This document shows, piece by piece, positions 49,354-54,345 of a stretch of 54,416 nucleotides of DNA. The stretch is from the NCBI RefSeq assembly GCF_000179555.1, contig NZ_AECZ01000026.1, positions 1-54,416 on the forward strand, read 5' to 3'. Each line of letters opens with the position of its first letter. Position 1 is the first letter of the stretch. The position numbers and the translations under genes are program-made. This DNA comes from Solidesulfovibrio fructosivorans JJ] (GTDB taxonomy: Bacteria > Desulfobacterota > Desulfovibrionia > Desulfovibrionales > Desulfovibrionaceae). The notes under the pieces are model-generated. The model was given only the letters and a program-made list of their open reading frames with translations, searched no databases and had not been told where the DNA came from.

Positions 49354-50688
49354 ATGACGCGAACATACGACCTGCTCGTGCTCGGCGCGGGACCGGCCTG
49401 CCACCCGGCGGCGCGTCGCTGCCGGGAAGCCGGCTGGTCCGTGGCCATCATCGAATCCGGACCGCTCGGCGGGGTCTGCCCGCATACCGGCTGCAACCCC
49501 AAAAAAGTGCTCATGGCCGCCGTCGAGGCCGTCTCCGCCGCCCGCCATCTGGCCGGCAAAGGCCTGTCCGGCGAGCCCGCCGTCGACTGGCAGGCGCTTA
49601 TGGCCTTCAAACGCGGTTTCACAAGCCCCATCGACGCCAGCATCGAAAAATCCTATGCCCAGGCCGGCATCGACATCATCCGGGGGCGCGGCGTCTTCAC
49701 CGGCAGCAACACCATAGCAGTGGACGCAACGGAATACACGGGCAAGAAAATTCTCATCGCCGTGGGCGCGCGGCCCCGGCGTTTCGACTTTCCCGGCAGC
49801 GACCGGCTCGACACCAGCGACACCTTCCTCGACCGCGACGCCCTGCCCAAATGCCTGGCCTTTATCGGCGGCGGCTTCATCGCCTTCGAACTGGCCCACA
49901 TCGCCAAATTCTGCGGCGGGAAAGAGGTCGCCATCATCACCCACGGCGACGCCTTCCTGCGCAACTTCGACCAGGACGCCGTTTCCCGCCTCGTGGATGC
50001 GACCCGCGCCCTGGGCATCGACGCGCGCTTAAACGCCCCGGTCTCCTCCATTACCCAAAGCCCCGAGGGCCTGCGCATCGAGGCTCCGGGCGCCAGTCTC
50101 ACCTGCGACATGGCGGTCAACGCCGCCGGCCGCCCCGCCGCCATCGACGACCTCGACCTCGAAGCCGCAGGCGTCACCCACACCAAGCGCGGCATCACCG
50201 TCAGCCCGTACCTCCAGACCGCCAATCCCGACATCTACGCCGCCGGCGACTGCCTGGACGCGCCCTACGCGCTCACCCCCACCGCCGACCTCGAAAGCAA
50301 GACCGCCGGGCACAACATGCTCACCGGCAATACCCTGCCCATCGACCGCCGCGGCACCCCGAGCGTGCTCTTCACCCAGCCGCCGCTCGGCATGGCCGGC
50401 CTGACCGAAGCCCAGTGCCGGGCCCGCGACATCCCCTACGAGAAAAAGGAATACGACCTGGCCGACGCCTTCCCCTGGAAGCGCCTGGGCGAAACCGTCG
50501 GCTATTCCAAGATCCTCACCGCCCCGGACACCGGCCGGATCCTCGGCGCGCACATCCTCGGCCACGACGCCGAGGAAATCATCAACGCCATCGCCCTGGC
50601 CATGCGCAACAACCTGCCGGCCAAGGCCCTGGCCGACGCCATCTGGGCCTACCCCACCTGCGGCTATTATCTGCGCTACATGGTGTAA
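49354..50688 (+). CDS. Disulfide oxidoreductase-like flavoprotein lacking the active-site His
   Basis: A 444-residue glutathione-reductase-fold protein. FAD motif LLVLGAGPACHPAARR, disulfide GGVCPHTGCNPKK, second nucleotide fold LAFIGGGFIAFELAHI, and GDCLDAPYALTPTADLESK are present. At the C-terminus, where relatives have HPT and a Glu, this protein reads IWAYPTCGYYLRYMV: Tyr replaces the His base and no Glu follows. Catalysis may differ from the family. The start follows AAAGGA 7 nt upstream. It is divergent from the Lpd-like gene and separated by only about 120 nt. Confidence 0.87.
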   Translation: MTRTYDLLVLGAGPACHPAARRCREAGWSVAIIESGPLGGVCPHTGCNPKKVLMAAVEAVSAARHLAGKGLSGEPAVDWQALMAFKRGFTSPIDASIEKSYAQAGIDIIRGRGVFTGSNTIAVDATEYTGKKILIAVGARPRRFDFPGSDRLDTSDTFLDRDALPKCLAFIGGGFIAFELAHIAKFCGGKEVAIITHGDAFLRNFDQDAVSRLVDATRALGIDARLNAPVSSITQSPEGLRIEAPGASLTCDMAVNAAGRPAAIDDLDLEAAGVTHTKRGITVSPYLQTANPDIYAAGDCLDAPYALTPTADLESKTAGHNMLTGNTLPIDRRGTPSVLFTQPPLGMAGLTEAQCRARDIPYEKKEYDLADAFPWKRLGETVGYSKILTAPDTGRILGAHILGHDAEEIINAIALAMRNNLPAKALADAIWAYPTCGYYLRYMV

Positions 50689-50690
50689 TA

Positions 50691-50813
50691 TAGGCTCAGG
50701 CTGGGGCGCTGCCCCCCGCTCTCCCCCATCCACCAGACCTACCCGGTAAAGGGGGGTTCGGGGGGCATCAAGCCCCCCGATGGAGGGGTGCAGGGGAGGC
50801 AAAGCCTCCCCTG
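50691..50813. repeat. G/C-run hairpin cluster, family D
   Basis: Just after the oxidoreductase stop lie a GGGGGGCATCAAGCCCCCC hairpin (50758-50777) and a perfect CAGGGGAGGC-AAA-GCCTCCCCTG hairpin (50791-50813). The layout looks like another Desulfovibrio intergenic unit, but only one copy is in the window, so it is called a repeat with caution. It likely ends the upstream transcript. Confidence 0.5.
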
Positions 50814-50826
50814 CCTGCCCCGGGGC

Positions 50827-50856
50827 TTGACGGGCCGGGGGAAGCCGGGGTAAGGA
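50827..50856 (+). promoter_or_regulatory. Promoter of the ilvBN operon
   Basis: TTGACG (50827-50832), 18-nt spacer, TAAGGA (50851-50856). The start near 50863 lies about 22 nt before the leader-peptide ATG. Confidence 0.5.
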
Positions 50857-50884
50857 TAACCAAACTGACGGAGAAAACCCTGCC

Positions 50885-50968
50885 ATGACTACGACGAATT
50901 CCCGCATGCTACCCGAGTCCTTCCGGACCAGCGCGGTCGTAGTAGGCGTCGTTATAACGGCGCCTTAG
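50885..50968 (+). CDS. ilvBN leader peptide (ivbL-like)
   Basis: A 27-residue peptide beginning MTTT and ending AVVVGVVITAP. Six of its last ten residues before the final Pro are Val or Ile. It closely parallels E. coli IvbL, which starts MTTS and ends in a Val run and NAP. A GGAG ribosome site lies 11 nt upstream. It is followed by a strong terminator and then ilvB. ACTACGAC (50888-50895) can pair with GTCGTAGT (50936-50943) and 50945-50964 is a self-complementary stem over the last Val/Ile codons; ribosome stalling at these codons would change the folding. Confidence 0.85.
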   Translation: MTTTNSRMLPESFRTSAVVVGVVITAP

Positions 50969-51002
50969 CGGGGATTCTTTTACAGCAATTCGAAGCTTAT
51001 CC

Positions 51003-51034
51003 AGCCCCCGCCGGCGCGCCGGCGGGGGCTTTTT
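51003..51034 (+). terminator. Attenuator terminator of ilvBN
   Basis: AGCCCCCGCCGGCG pairs perfectly with CGCCGGCGGGGGCT, followed by TTTTTGCGTTTT. It lies between the leader peptide and ilvB, where a transcription attenuator is expected. GCGGGG at 50968-50973 could pair with its 5' arm (51006-51011) to form the competing structure. Confidence 0.85.
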
Positions 51035-51076
51035 GCGTTTTCCGCCGCGCGTCGTTGGGGCCCAAGGAGGCCCAAG

Positions 51077-52762
51077 ATGATTGAGATGACCGGAGCGCGC
51101 ATCATTGCGGAAAGTCTCGTGCGGCATGGCATCACCGTGGTGTCGGGCATCCCGGGCGGAGCCAATCTGCCGATGTTCGACGCCATCGCCGAAACGCCGG
51201 TGCGCATCGTGCTGGCGCGCCATGAACAGGGCGCGGGGTTCATCGCCCAGGGCATGGCCCGGGTCTCGGGCACGACCCAGGTGTGTCTGGCCACGTCGGG
51301 GCCGGGGGCGATGAACGTGCTGACCGCCATTGCCGACGCCAAGGCCGACTCCGTGCCGCTGGTGTGCATCACGGGGCAGGTTTCGCGCGGGCTTATCGGC
51401 ACGGACGCCTTTCAGGAAGTGGACGTGTACGGCCTGACGATCCCCATCGCCAAGCACAACATGCTGGTGCGCCGGGCGGCCGATCTGCCAAGGCTCATGG
51501 CCGACGCCTTTCACATCGCCGCCTCGGGCCGGCCCGGTCCGGTGGTGATCGACGTGCCCCGGGACGTGCAGACCGAACTGGTCCGGTTCGACGCCTGGCC
51601 CGAGACGGGGCATGCCGATGCCCAGGCCATGCCGCACACGACCGAGCTGGCCAAGGCGGCGGCGCTCATGGCGGCGAGCCGGCGGCCGGTGCTCTACTGC
51701 GGCGGCGGCGCGGCCCGGTGCGGCGCGGGCGAGGCCGTGACCGCCCTGGCCGAGGCGCTCGACGCGCCGGTGGTGACCACGCTGATGGCCCTTGGCCTGC
51801 TGCCGGTCGACCATCCGCGAAACGCGGGCATGATCGGCATGCACGGCCGGCCGGCCTCCAATCATCTGCTCACCGACTGCGACCTGCTCGTGGCCATCGG
51901 CGCGCGTTTCGACGACCGGGCCACGGGCGACGCCAAGCGGTTCTGTCCGGACGCGGCCGTAGTGCACATCGACATCGACCCGGCCGAACACCACAAGAAC
52001 AGGCGCGCCCATGTCGCCCTGGCCGGGGACGCGGCCAGGATTCTCGATGCGCTCCTGCCCCTGGTGCCGTCCCGGGCGCGGCCGGACTGGTCGGCGCACC
52101 GGGCGGTGCTGCGCGAGCTGCATCCCTTTTCCCTGCCGGCCCTCGGCGATCCCAAAAGCCCGTACGGCGTGCTGGCGGCGGTGGCCGACATCCTCGGCCC
52201 CGAGGCCATCGTGACCACCGACGTGGGCCAGAACCAGATGCGCGCGGCCCAGGTCTGGCCGTGCTCGCGGCCGGGACGGTTCCTCACCTCGGGCGGGCTC
52301 GGCACCATGGGCTTCGGGCTGCCCTCGGCCATCGGCGCGGCGCTGGCCGAACCGGGCACGCCGGTGGTGTGCGTCACCGGCGACGGCGGGCTGCTCATGA
52401 ACATCCAGGAGATGGCCACGCTGGTGGAGCTGGGGTTGCCGGTCAAAATCCTGCTCATGGACAACGGCGTGCTCGGGCTCGTGCGCCAGCAGCAGGCCTT
52501 TTTCGTAGAGGGGCGCTACACGGCCACGACCTTTTCCGCCCGGCCGGATTTCGCGGCCCTGGCCGCCGGGTTCGGCATGGCGAGCCTCGACATGGCACGC
52601 TGCCGCGATGGACGCGGCGCTTTGGCCGCCGCCCTGGCCGCGCAGGGACCGGCACTCATCCGCGTCCCGGTCGATCCCGACGCCCACGTGTACCCCATGG
52701 TGCCCCCCGGCGCCGCCAACAGCGAAATGATTCTGGAGGGAAGCCATGCCGACGCCAATTGA
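51077..52762 (+). CDS. ilvB: Acetolactate synthase large subunit (AHAS I type)
   Basis: A 561-residue thiamine-diphosphate enzyme that makes acetolactate and acetohydroxybutyrate for valine, leucine and isoleucine. The catalytic Glu lies in LARHEQGAGFIAQGMAR. The ThDP motif is GDGGLLMNIQEMATLVELG and an FAD-type region follows MALGLLPVDHP. It ends VYPMVPPGAANSEM, which matches the end of E. coli IlvB, the valine-sensitive AHAS I. The start follows AAGGAGG 6 nt upstream. The 3' end overlaps ilvN by 17 nt. Confidence 0.95.
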   Translation: MIEMTGARIIAESLVRHGITVVSGIPGGANLPMFDAIAETPVRIVLARHEQGAGFIAQGMARVSGTTQVCLATSGPGAMNVLTAIADAKADSVPLVCITGQVSRGLIGTDAFQEVDVYGLTIPIAKHNMLVRRAADLPRLMADAFHIAASGRPGPVVIDVPRDVQTELVRFDAWPETGHADAQAMPHTTELAKAAALMAASRRPVLYCGGGAARCGAGEAVTALAEALDAPVVTTLMALGLLPVDHPRNAGMIGMHGRPASNHLLTDCDLLVAIGARFDDRATGDAKRFCPDAAVVHIDIDPAEHHKNRRAHVALAGDAARILDALLPLVPSRARPDWSAHRAVLRELHPFSLPALGDPKSPYGVLAAVADILGPEAIVTTDVGQNQMRAAQVWPCSRPGRFLTSGGLGTMGFGLPSAIGAALAEPGTPVVCVTGDGGLLMNIQEMATLVELGLPVKILLMDNGVLGLVRQQQAFFVEGRYTATTFSARPDFAALAAGFGMASLDMARCRDGRGALAAALAAQGPALIRVPVDPDAHVYPMVPPGAANSEMILEGSHADAN

Positions 52763-53057
52763 CGCGAGAGGTCCCGAAAGCGGCCACGCCGTGCTGGAGT
52801 TGGCCGCCCATGATCCCATGGCCGCCGTGCGCCATGTGGCCGCCTGTCTGGCCAGGCGGGCCTATCCCCTGCTGGGGCTGGCCTGCCTGCCCCGTCCCGA
52901 CGGAACGACGCGGTTGGTCGTGGCCGTAACCGACGACGGACGCCTGTCCCGGCTGCTGGCGGAACTGGCCGGATTGCCGGAGATTTTCGCCGCCCGGCTG
53001 GGCGATCCCGGCGCCCCGATCCTGGCCGCGCTGGCGGGGAATGCGGCCATGGCCTGA
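52746..53057 (+). CDS. ilvN: Acetolactate synthase small (regulatory) subunit
   Basis: A 103-residue single-ACT-domain protein with VLELAAHDPMAAVRHVAACL and ARRAYPLLGLACLP, matching E. coli IlvN in length and pattern. It binds valine and controls the IlvB large subunit. The start, inside ilvB, follows TGGAGG 6 nt upstream, so translation is coupled. Most bacteria use the longer IlvH; the short form here fits the ilvB/ivbL context. Confidence 0.92.
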   Translation: MPTPIDARGPESGHAVLELAAHDPMAAVRHVAACLARRAYPLLGLACLPRPDGTTRLVVAVTDDGRLSRLLAELAGLPEIFAARLGDPGAPILAALAGNAAMA

Positions 53058-54279: not shown

Positions 54280-54345
54280 TGCCTCCGGCGGCCAGGGGGA
54301 AACTTTTTGAAAAAAGTTTCCCCCTGGACCCTCTTCAAAAACTTT
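54280..54345. repeat. Intergenic hairpin repeat, family A copy 6
   Basis: Prefix TGCCTCCGGCGGCC, the GGGGGAAACTTTTT hairpin with the TGGACCCTCTTCAAAAACTT tail. It begins 15 nt after the kinase stop and is nearly identical to copies 1 and 3. Confidence 0.8.

Follow-up and report, generated by a model that had tools for sequence, protein, structure and literature searches.

A probable ribosome-mediated valine attenuator preceding the AHAS-I-type ilvBN operon of Solidesulfovibrio fructosivorans and its relatives

Short open frames rich in branched-chain codons precede ilvB in several bacterial lineages. Attenuation has been proposed for the ilvB-II, ilvB-OMG, and Leptospira ilvB motifs and for the actinobacterial ilvB leaders, which share this layout with the element described here (PMC10272879 and PMC1262725). 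Leader peptides before ilvB are reported or predicted in these papers for Corynebacterium, Mycobacterium, Streptomyces, and Leptospira. The presence of such a leader is no proof of attenuation, since altering the putative control codons of an ilvB leader in Streptomyces coelicolor had no effect (PMC1262725). Within the sulfate reducers, a putative attenuator of an aromatic-pathway operon of Desulfovibrio vulgaris, taken from Merino's predicted-attenuator database, is tabulated in PMC1173090; our searches of the open-licence literature listed no paper on ilvB attenuation in Desulfovibrio.

We analyzed a stretch of 54,416 nucleotides from S. fructosivorans JJ (contig NZ_AECZ01000026.1; hereafter, the window). 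The sequence-only reading of this DNA had proposed a leader peptide and attenuator of the Escherichia coli ivbL type before ilvBN, and the comparison bears this out: the alignment score of the leader with E. coli IvbL was matched by only 3 of 5,000 shuffles, and the K-12 annotation places ivbL in the same position. The two loci share a Val-rich leader ending in -AP-stop, an AHAS-I ilvB, a short ilvN, and a terminator 5' arm with CCCCGCCGGCGC, and the same antiterminator contrast was computed for L080. The window differs from E. coli in its rare GUA control codons (GUG/GUC in E. coli), in a leader of 27 residues (32 in E. coli) with fewer Val codons, in an IlvB that belongs to a separate group, and in an IlvN without the NHPG motif. 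Zoogloea and its relatives (Betaproteobacteria) also have a GUA-rich Val leader and similar terminator and antiterminator segments, but the Zoogloea leaders end in -AS and the IlvB falls in a different group; alignments of the window leader with a Dickeya and a Zoogloea leader were not special (matched by 917 and 1,222 of 5,000 shuffles, respectively). On the basis of the sequence comparisons below, we put at roughly 0.87 the probability that the ilvBN (AHAS I) operon carries a classical ribosome-mediated valine attenuator inherited within the Desulfovibrionaceae. The mechanism is already known, and the window element adds another member. Its features are as follows.

50827-50856, + strand: candidate promoter TTGACG-18-TAAGGA, by consensus reading only
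50870-50873, + strand: GGAG, putative ribosome-binding site of the leader, read from the sequence
50885-50968, + strand: leader peptide frame MTTTNSRMLPESFRTSAVVVGVVITAP, 27 codons and a stop (ATG at 50885, TAG at 50966-50968)
50936-50953, + strand: control region GTC GTA GTA GGC GTC GTT; of its five Val codons, two are the rare GTA
50944-50965, + strand: protector hairpin 1:2, spanning the second half of the Val codons (50944-50952 with 50957-50965, -14.4 kcal/mol)
50960-50973, + strand: predicted antiterminator 5' segment around the leader stop (GCGCC, 50960-50964; GCGGGG, 50968-50973)
51003-51034, + strand: intrinsic terminator and T-run (stem 51003-51014 with 51019-51030, -28.5 kcal/mol)
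51006-51017, + strand: predicted antiterminator 3' segment in the terminator 5' arm and loop (CCCCGC, 51006-51011; GGCGC, 51013-51017)
51077-52762, + strand: ilvB, AHAS-I-type acetolactate synthase large subunit, 561 aa (NCBIfam and tree)
52746-53057, + strand: ilvN, AHAS-I-type small subunit, 103 aa (NF006036, 32.4 bits; cut-off, 128)
52812-52823, + strand: DPMA at the position of the NHPG motif, IlvN residues 23-26 (IlvN alignment)

The 27-codon frame, its ribosome-binding site, and the peptide ending AVVVGVVITAP are present as the sequence-only reading had described them. The GGAG lies 11 nt upstream of the ATG, which is a long spacing, and the genus alignment has GGAG or AGGA at this position, as judged by eye. 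A loose promoter rule (TTGAC, a spacer of 16 to 19, and a second hexamer starting with TA) finds a site in 11 of 11 genus loci; a stricter scan of 50400-51200 found no promoter. We scored short frames ending 50 to 200 nt before ilvB by Val density, with Leu and Ile at half weight. The window leader scored 5.5, a value reached in none of 2,000 dinucleotide shuffles of its upstream region; among sliding 340-nt stretches of the window on both strands, 3 of 2,164 reached it, and all three are the leader itself. A Val-rich leader (score of at least 5) occurs in 83 of the 90 Desulfovibrionales AHAS-I loci fetched out of the order's 134 (shuffles, 2 of 1,800). The earlier suggestion that ilvB attenuation is described mainly in gammaproteobacteria is not borne out by PMC1262725 and PMC10272879, cited above.

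The leader is also found in close relatives, where its absence would, according to the sequence-only reading, have counted against the proposal: all 10 other aligned loci of the genus have one. Within the leader, all 18 gaps in the alignment of the 11 genus loci are 3 nt long, and those 3' of the stop are 1, 2, 3, 5, 6, or 9 nt long. The sequence hardly varies in the antiterminator segment, the terminator, and the latter half of the leader, and it drifts in the earlier half of the leader and in the linker. The element thus has the short Val-rich frame of a classical attenuator, and the pattern of conservation suggests that this frame is translated. The peptide itself had no match in Pfam or NCBIfam. 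In three loci (L145, L144, and L169; the genome of L145 is G120), there are apparent tandem attenuators before ilvB, i.e., two leader-terminator units, each with a Val-rich frame, and L186 perhaps has tandem attenuators as well.

Between the leader and the first gene lies an intrinsic terminator with a 12-bp stem and a 4-nt loop (51003-51030). The number of terminator-like sites counted by a scan (i.e., one; shuffled mean, 0.6) is not above chance, and the terminator covaries, with 38 alignment cells altered on both sides (equaled in 0 of 500 shuffles). None of 200 shuffles was as stable as the folded region (z = -2.92). Three stems had been noted from the sequence alone. The terminator stands; the middle stem stands with one more base pair at its base (50944-50952 with 50957-50965), and its arms, GGCGTCG...CGGCGCC, occur in 11 of 11 genus loci, where the same bases also encode the conserved peptide. 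The remaining stem (50888-50895 with 50936-50943) is present in the minimum-energy fold; we do not count it as functional because its 5' arm is unconserved in the genus, being kept, by eye, only in the window and largely in L120. The T-run and the succession of ilvB and a short ilvN were found as described.

A pairing of the leader end (50960-50973) with the terminator 5' arm and loop (51006-51017) was absent from that description. With RNA polymerase at 51018 and the Val codons occupied by a ribosome, the computed fold contains this antiterminator, at -24.9 kcal/mol. When the ribosome is placed on the stop codon, only -5.4 kcal/mol is left, and the terminator arm therefore stays free for the terminator. 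This contrast was seen in all 29 loci picked by hand, 11 from the genus and 18 others. At equilibrium, the full transcript favors the terminator even with the ribosome on the Val codons (-35.4), so that antitermination would have to be kinetic.

The comparison among loci is consistent with such a switch. The antiterminator pairing is retained in all 11 genus loci. Across 88 loci, the leader end pairs with the terminator arm of its own locus at -22.4 kcal/mol, compared with -19.2 kcal/mol for mixed loci (reached in 0 of 10,000 permutations); the median rank of the own arm is only 21.5th of 88 because the motif is conserved. In the 60 of these 88 loci selected for alignment A2, the antiterminator register pairs in 87.9% of the cells, and in 35 to 64% when it is slid. 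Related loci are not independent in these pairing tests, and A2 omits 20 tree loci in which the leader end is not at the stop or is divergent, as well as 8 loci removed by hand (L010, L017, L090, L130, L144, L155, L169, and L178); in six others (L024, L072, L108, L176, L199, and L200), automatic detection found no leader-terminator unit. Covariation of the antiterminator is modest (the score was reached in 28 of 500 shuffles, and the percentage paired in 105 of 500), with few compensatory changes, chiefly at columns 30-84 and 32-82. Folding and comparison thus point to an antiterminator that excludes the terminator, with a weak shuffle control in the window itself (dinucleotide-shuffled leader ends equal its pairing energy in 10 of 200 cases); no more than 2 of 200 shuffles reach the pairing energy in only 22 of 88 loci (median z, -1.79). 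At the level of sequence, the comparison shows a leader frame, a terminator, and a register-specific complementarity between the leader end and the terminator 5' arm. What supports the antiterminator is comparison among loci; the mechanism, which would be kinetic, is one that we infer.

In this mechanism, a ribosome short of Val-tRNA would stall on GUC-GUA-GUA, where it covers the protector hairpin's 5' arm. The two segments GCGCC and GCGGGG could then pair with the first terminator arm before the second arm is made, and RNA polymerase would continue into ilvBN. Under ample valine, the ribosome would reach the stop codon and cover the antiterminator 5' segment, so that the terminator would form. 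If the leader were not translated, the protector hairpin would sequester GGCGCC, and the terminator would again be expected to form.

No Rfam 15 family matched the element above its gathering score, either in the window or in any of 15 relatives; the overlaps seen below threshold were with P15 (other strand of the window, 25.2 of 70 bits) and with ctRNA_pGA1 (L166, 28.2 of 45 bits). When the own genome was searched with a model of the element built from the alignment, a single strong full-length match appeared (76.6 bits), the next full-length matches being 27.2 bits (the same terminator, other strand) and 24.2 bits elsewhere. Across 150 Desulfovibrionales genomes, the 65 matches that reach 44 bits all directly precede an AHAS-I ilvB, as judged by comparing coordinates, and many of them are members or kin of the model's own alignment; the best matches elsewhere reach 39.7 and 39.3 bits. 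Among held-out AHAS-I loci, 40 of 46 match at 31.9 bits or more (0 of 5 other AHAS-like loci), against a background of up to 31.5 bits on the opposite strand of the element and 32.1 bits for a terminator elsewhere in the own genome. The held-out loci below 30 bits (L139, L191, L199, L200, L036, and L078) are indistinct from the background. The AHAS-III-type locus of the same genome (L081) is without a Val-rich leader or attenuator element.

The best NCBIfam model for IlvB is NF006016 (779.6 bits, below its cut-off of 870), and the protein scores above the cut-off of TIGR00118 (623.5 bits). It groups with the AHAS-I rows, not with four AHAS-III-type rows, and we accordingly class it as AHAS-I type. 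It has QQQ where the AHAS-III-type paralogue has QWQ, which we take to be a distinction between the AHAS types. Taking a best NF006016 match of at least 727 bits as AHAS-I type, ilvB of this type occurs in 134 of 297 Desulfovibrionales genomes sampled, 86 of them above the cut-off. In the phylum sample (E ≤ 1e-200), 14 of 247 genomes have a match, and three matches at 667 to 669 bits group with the AHAS-III-type rows.

The small subunit is a short IlvN, with a predicted ACT domain, that scores under the NF006036 cut-off. Its predicted model (mean pLDDT, 79.5) has the ACT fold beta-alpha-beta-beta-alpha-beta, and its best PDB match is the E. coli IlvN-valine structure, 5ypp. The agreement with E. 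coli claimed earlier for the short ilvN therefore extends to length and predicted fold, but the valine-site motif NHPG is missing (DPMA in the window). Of 70 other AHAS-I loci, 67 keep N, all 70 keep H, 64 keep P, and 69 keep G. Of the 12 loci of the genus (11 distinct, since L002 and L118 encode the same IlvN protein), none retains N, H, or P, and G has been replaced in 9, with 3 keeping it. These proteins were aligned by MAFFT; a search next to ilvB yielded no IlvN in 13 of 99 loci (L125-L128, L131-L133, L183, L184, L186, L195, L198, and L200). By analogy with Corynebacterium IlvN, whose Gly20 we take to correspond to the G of NHPG, the motif presumably takes part in valine inhibition. In Corynebacterium, Gly20Asp together with changes at neighboring residues relieves feedback inhibition (PMC8709942 and PMC9834717). 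The small-subunit motif of the AHAS-III-type paralogue (L081) is DEPG, with N likewise replaced by D, so that N to D alone need not abolish binding. Reasoning from the analogy, valine inhibition of the window's AHAS I would have been lost. Since N, H, and P, and in most loci G, are lost in the IlvN of the genus, attenuation may be the main remaining valine control of this isozyme in Solidesulfovibrio.

The altered motif would also fit a relic, i.e., an operon that is no longer valine regulated and in which leader and hairpins merely persist. The ilvN frame is intact. Its dN/dS (0.21 to 0.63) is higher than that of ilvB (0.11 to 0.23) in 8 of 8 pairs, which leans the same way. Such decay is nevertheless improbable, given the near invariance of the leader's second half, the antiterminator segment, and the terminator, and the pairing kept in every genus locus. 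Only slightly less credible would be a recent arrival of the whole cassette with its leader from a gammaproteobacterium, one of the two origins offered by the sequence-only reading (the other being inheritance from a common ancestor). For such an arrival speak the resemblance of the leader to IvbL and, among the best 80 matches of a capped list that may omit near kin, the best named IlvB matches outside the genus, which are gammaproteobacterial and betaproteobacterial (about 55%) and come after those of S. alcoholivorans (84%) and S. aerotolerans (77%). However, a quick tree of 95 rows, which has no bootstrap and includes several long rows, places the window IlvB within Solidesulfovibrio (100) and, closest to this genus, a second genus of the Desulfovibrionaceae (SH-aLRT, 97); the larger enclosing group is almost wholly Desulfovibrionales with weak support (85). 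An AU test rejects a clade of Solidesulfovibrio with eight gammaproteobacterial rows, six of them Enterobacterales (p = 0.0008); with six betaproteobacterial rows added, the clade is not rejected (p = 0.051). AHAS-I ilvB is, moreover, common in the order, as counted above, and rare in E. coli's class (11 of 369 genomes at E ≤ 1e-215). The Desulfovibrionales rows do not form one clade in the quick tree: those outside Solidesulfovibrio need seven changes, at least three of them forced by starred branches. Because of the IlvB grouping and the AU test, the ilvBN cassette looks native to the Desulfovibrionaceae, so that inheritance, within the family, is the part of the earlier origin claim that is upheld, and recent gammaproteobacterial acquisition the part that is not.

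What the ribosome-dependent switch senses could also differ from valyl-tRNA, e.g., leucine or general starvation through rare CUA and GUA codons. We consider this unlikely, if less so than the two preceding explanations. A rare CTA Leu codon (13 of 1,596 Leu codons in 28 window frames) is present in all 11 genus leaders, and attenuation of E. coli ilvB is said to respond to several amino acids. The window leader nevertheless has a single Leu codon, well 5' of the protector hairpin; a ribosome there would leave this hairpin in place, although part of the antiterminator can still form as long as the second terminator arm has not been made. Least probable of all is a metabolite-binding riboswitch in place of a ribosome-dependent switch. 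The structure is conserved, and ppGpp riboswitches control ilvB in some bacteria (PMC10272879), yet the element and its relatives match no Rfam family at the gathering score, and its conservation tracks a reading frame with in-frame gaps.

The valine attenuator in the order is marked by its codons. In 89 Desulfovibrionales loci, GTA makes up 312 of 681 leader Val codons (46%) versus 136 of 3,670 (3.7%) in ilvB, and in 9 betaproteobacterial loci, 51 of 71 versus 3 of 371. The bias is reversed in 65 mostly enteric gammaproteobacterial loci (15 of 614 in leaders versus 277 of 2,163 in ilvB; the group includes L059, which bears a Chryseobacterium title) and small in 8 other loci of E. coli's class (13 of 70 versus 36 of 326). 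Leaders were trimmed to their last 22 codons for these counts, and L036 and L078 stand outside every group. The opposite choice of Val codons can be seen between the Desulfovibrionales and betaproteobacterial leaders (GUA; L086-L175) and the enteric ones (GUG/GUC; L004-L080).

Among the 30 tRNA loci read out of 44 matches, the own genome has tRNA-Val with GAC, CAC, and UAC anticodons. With its tRNA-Val(CAC) gene as the query, full matches were found in four of six genomes searched (G115, G049, G107, and Zoogloea G536). In E. coli G535, nothing exceeded 30.1 bits, and the matches in G083, whose leader has GTA, were all Gly and Cys tRNA genes; such a search can overlook a diverged gene. Because of these four matches in six and the absence in G083, a link between codon choice and the tRNA-Val set is only a hypothesis. 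Hypothetically, where a separate tRNA-Val(CAC) takes the common GUG codon, leaders would avoid GUG and use GUA, read by tRNA-Val(UAC), and where the CAC tRNA is lacking, as in E. coli, they would use GUG. PMC1183508 argues that being rare is not by itself what makes a control codon the most sensitive. We regard as tentative, and on balance doubtful, the joint proposal that the Solidesulfovibrio AHAS I has lost its valine site, that the attenuator is its only remaining valine control, and that the control codons were chosen for the tRNA set. If the codon part were true, these loci would form a natural experiment, with one attenuator design, varied control codons, and varied valine tRNAs; if the IlvN part were true, the enzyme would be one whose transcriptional control outlasts its allosteric site; and if both were, the choice of attenuator control codons would become directly testable.

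The occurrence of the element in sulfate reducers indicates that the AHAS-I valine attenuator is more than a peculiarity of enterics, being conserved as a regulatory RNA across many sulfate reducers and in some other bacteria. Additionally, we noted several minor features of the surrounding DNA. The stretch 50690-50830, which separates the upstream oxidoreductase gene from the candidate leader promoter, is very G+C rich and contains inverted repeats, and L002 has a stretch that looks similar by eye. In S. alcoholivorans (L001, 1640-1700), long runs of C and then of G lie 5' of the leader, possibly an assembly fault. Near the end of the window, an inverted repeat at 54290-54330, possibly a two-way terminator, has sub-threshold microRNA matches on both strands.
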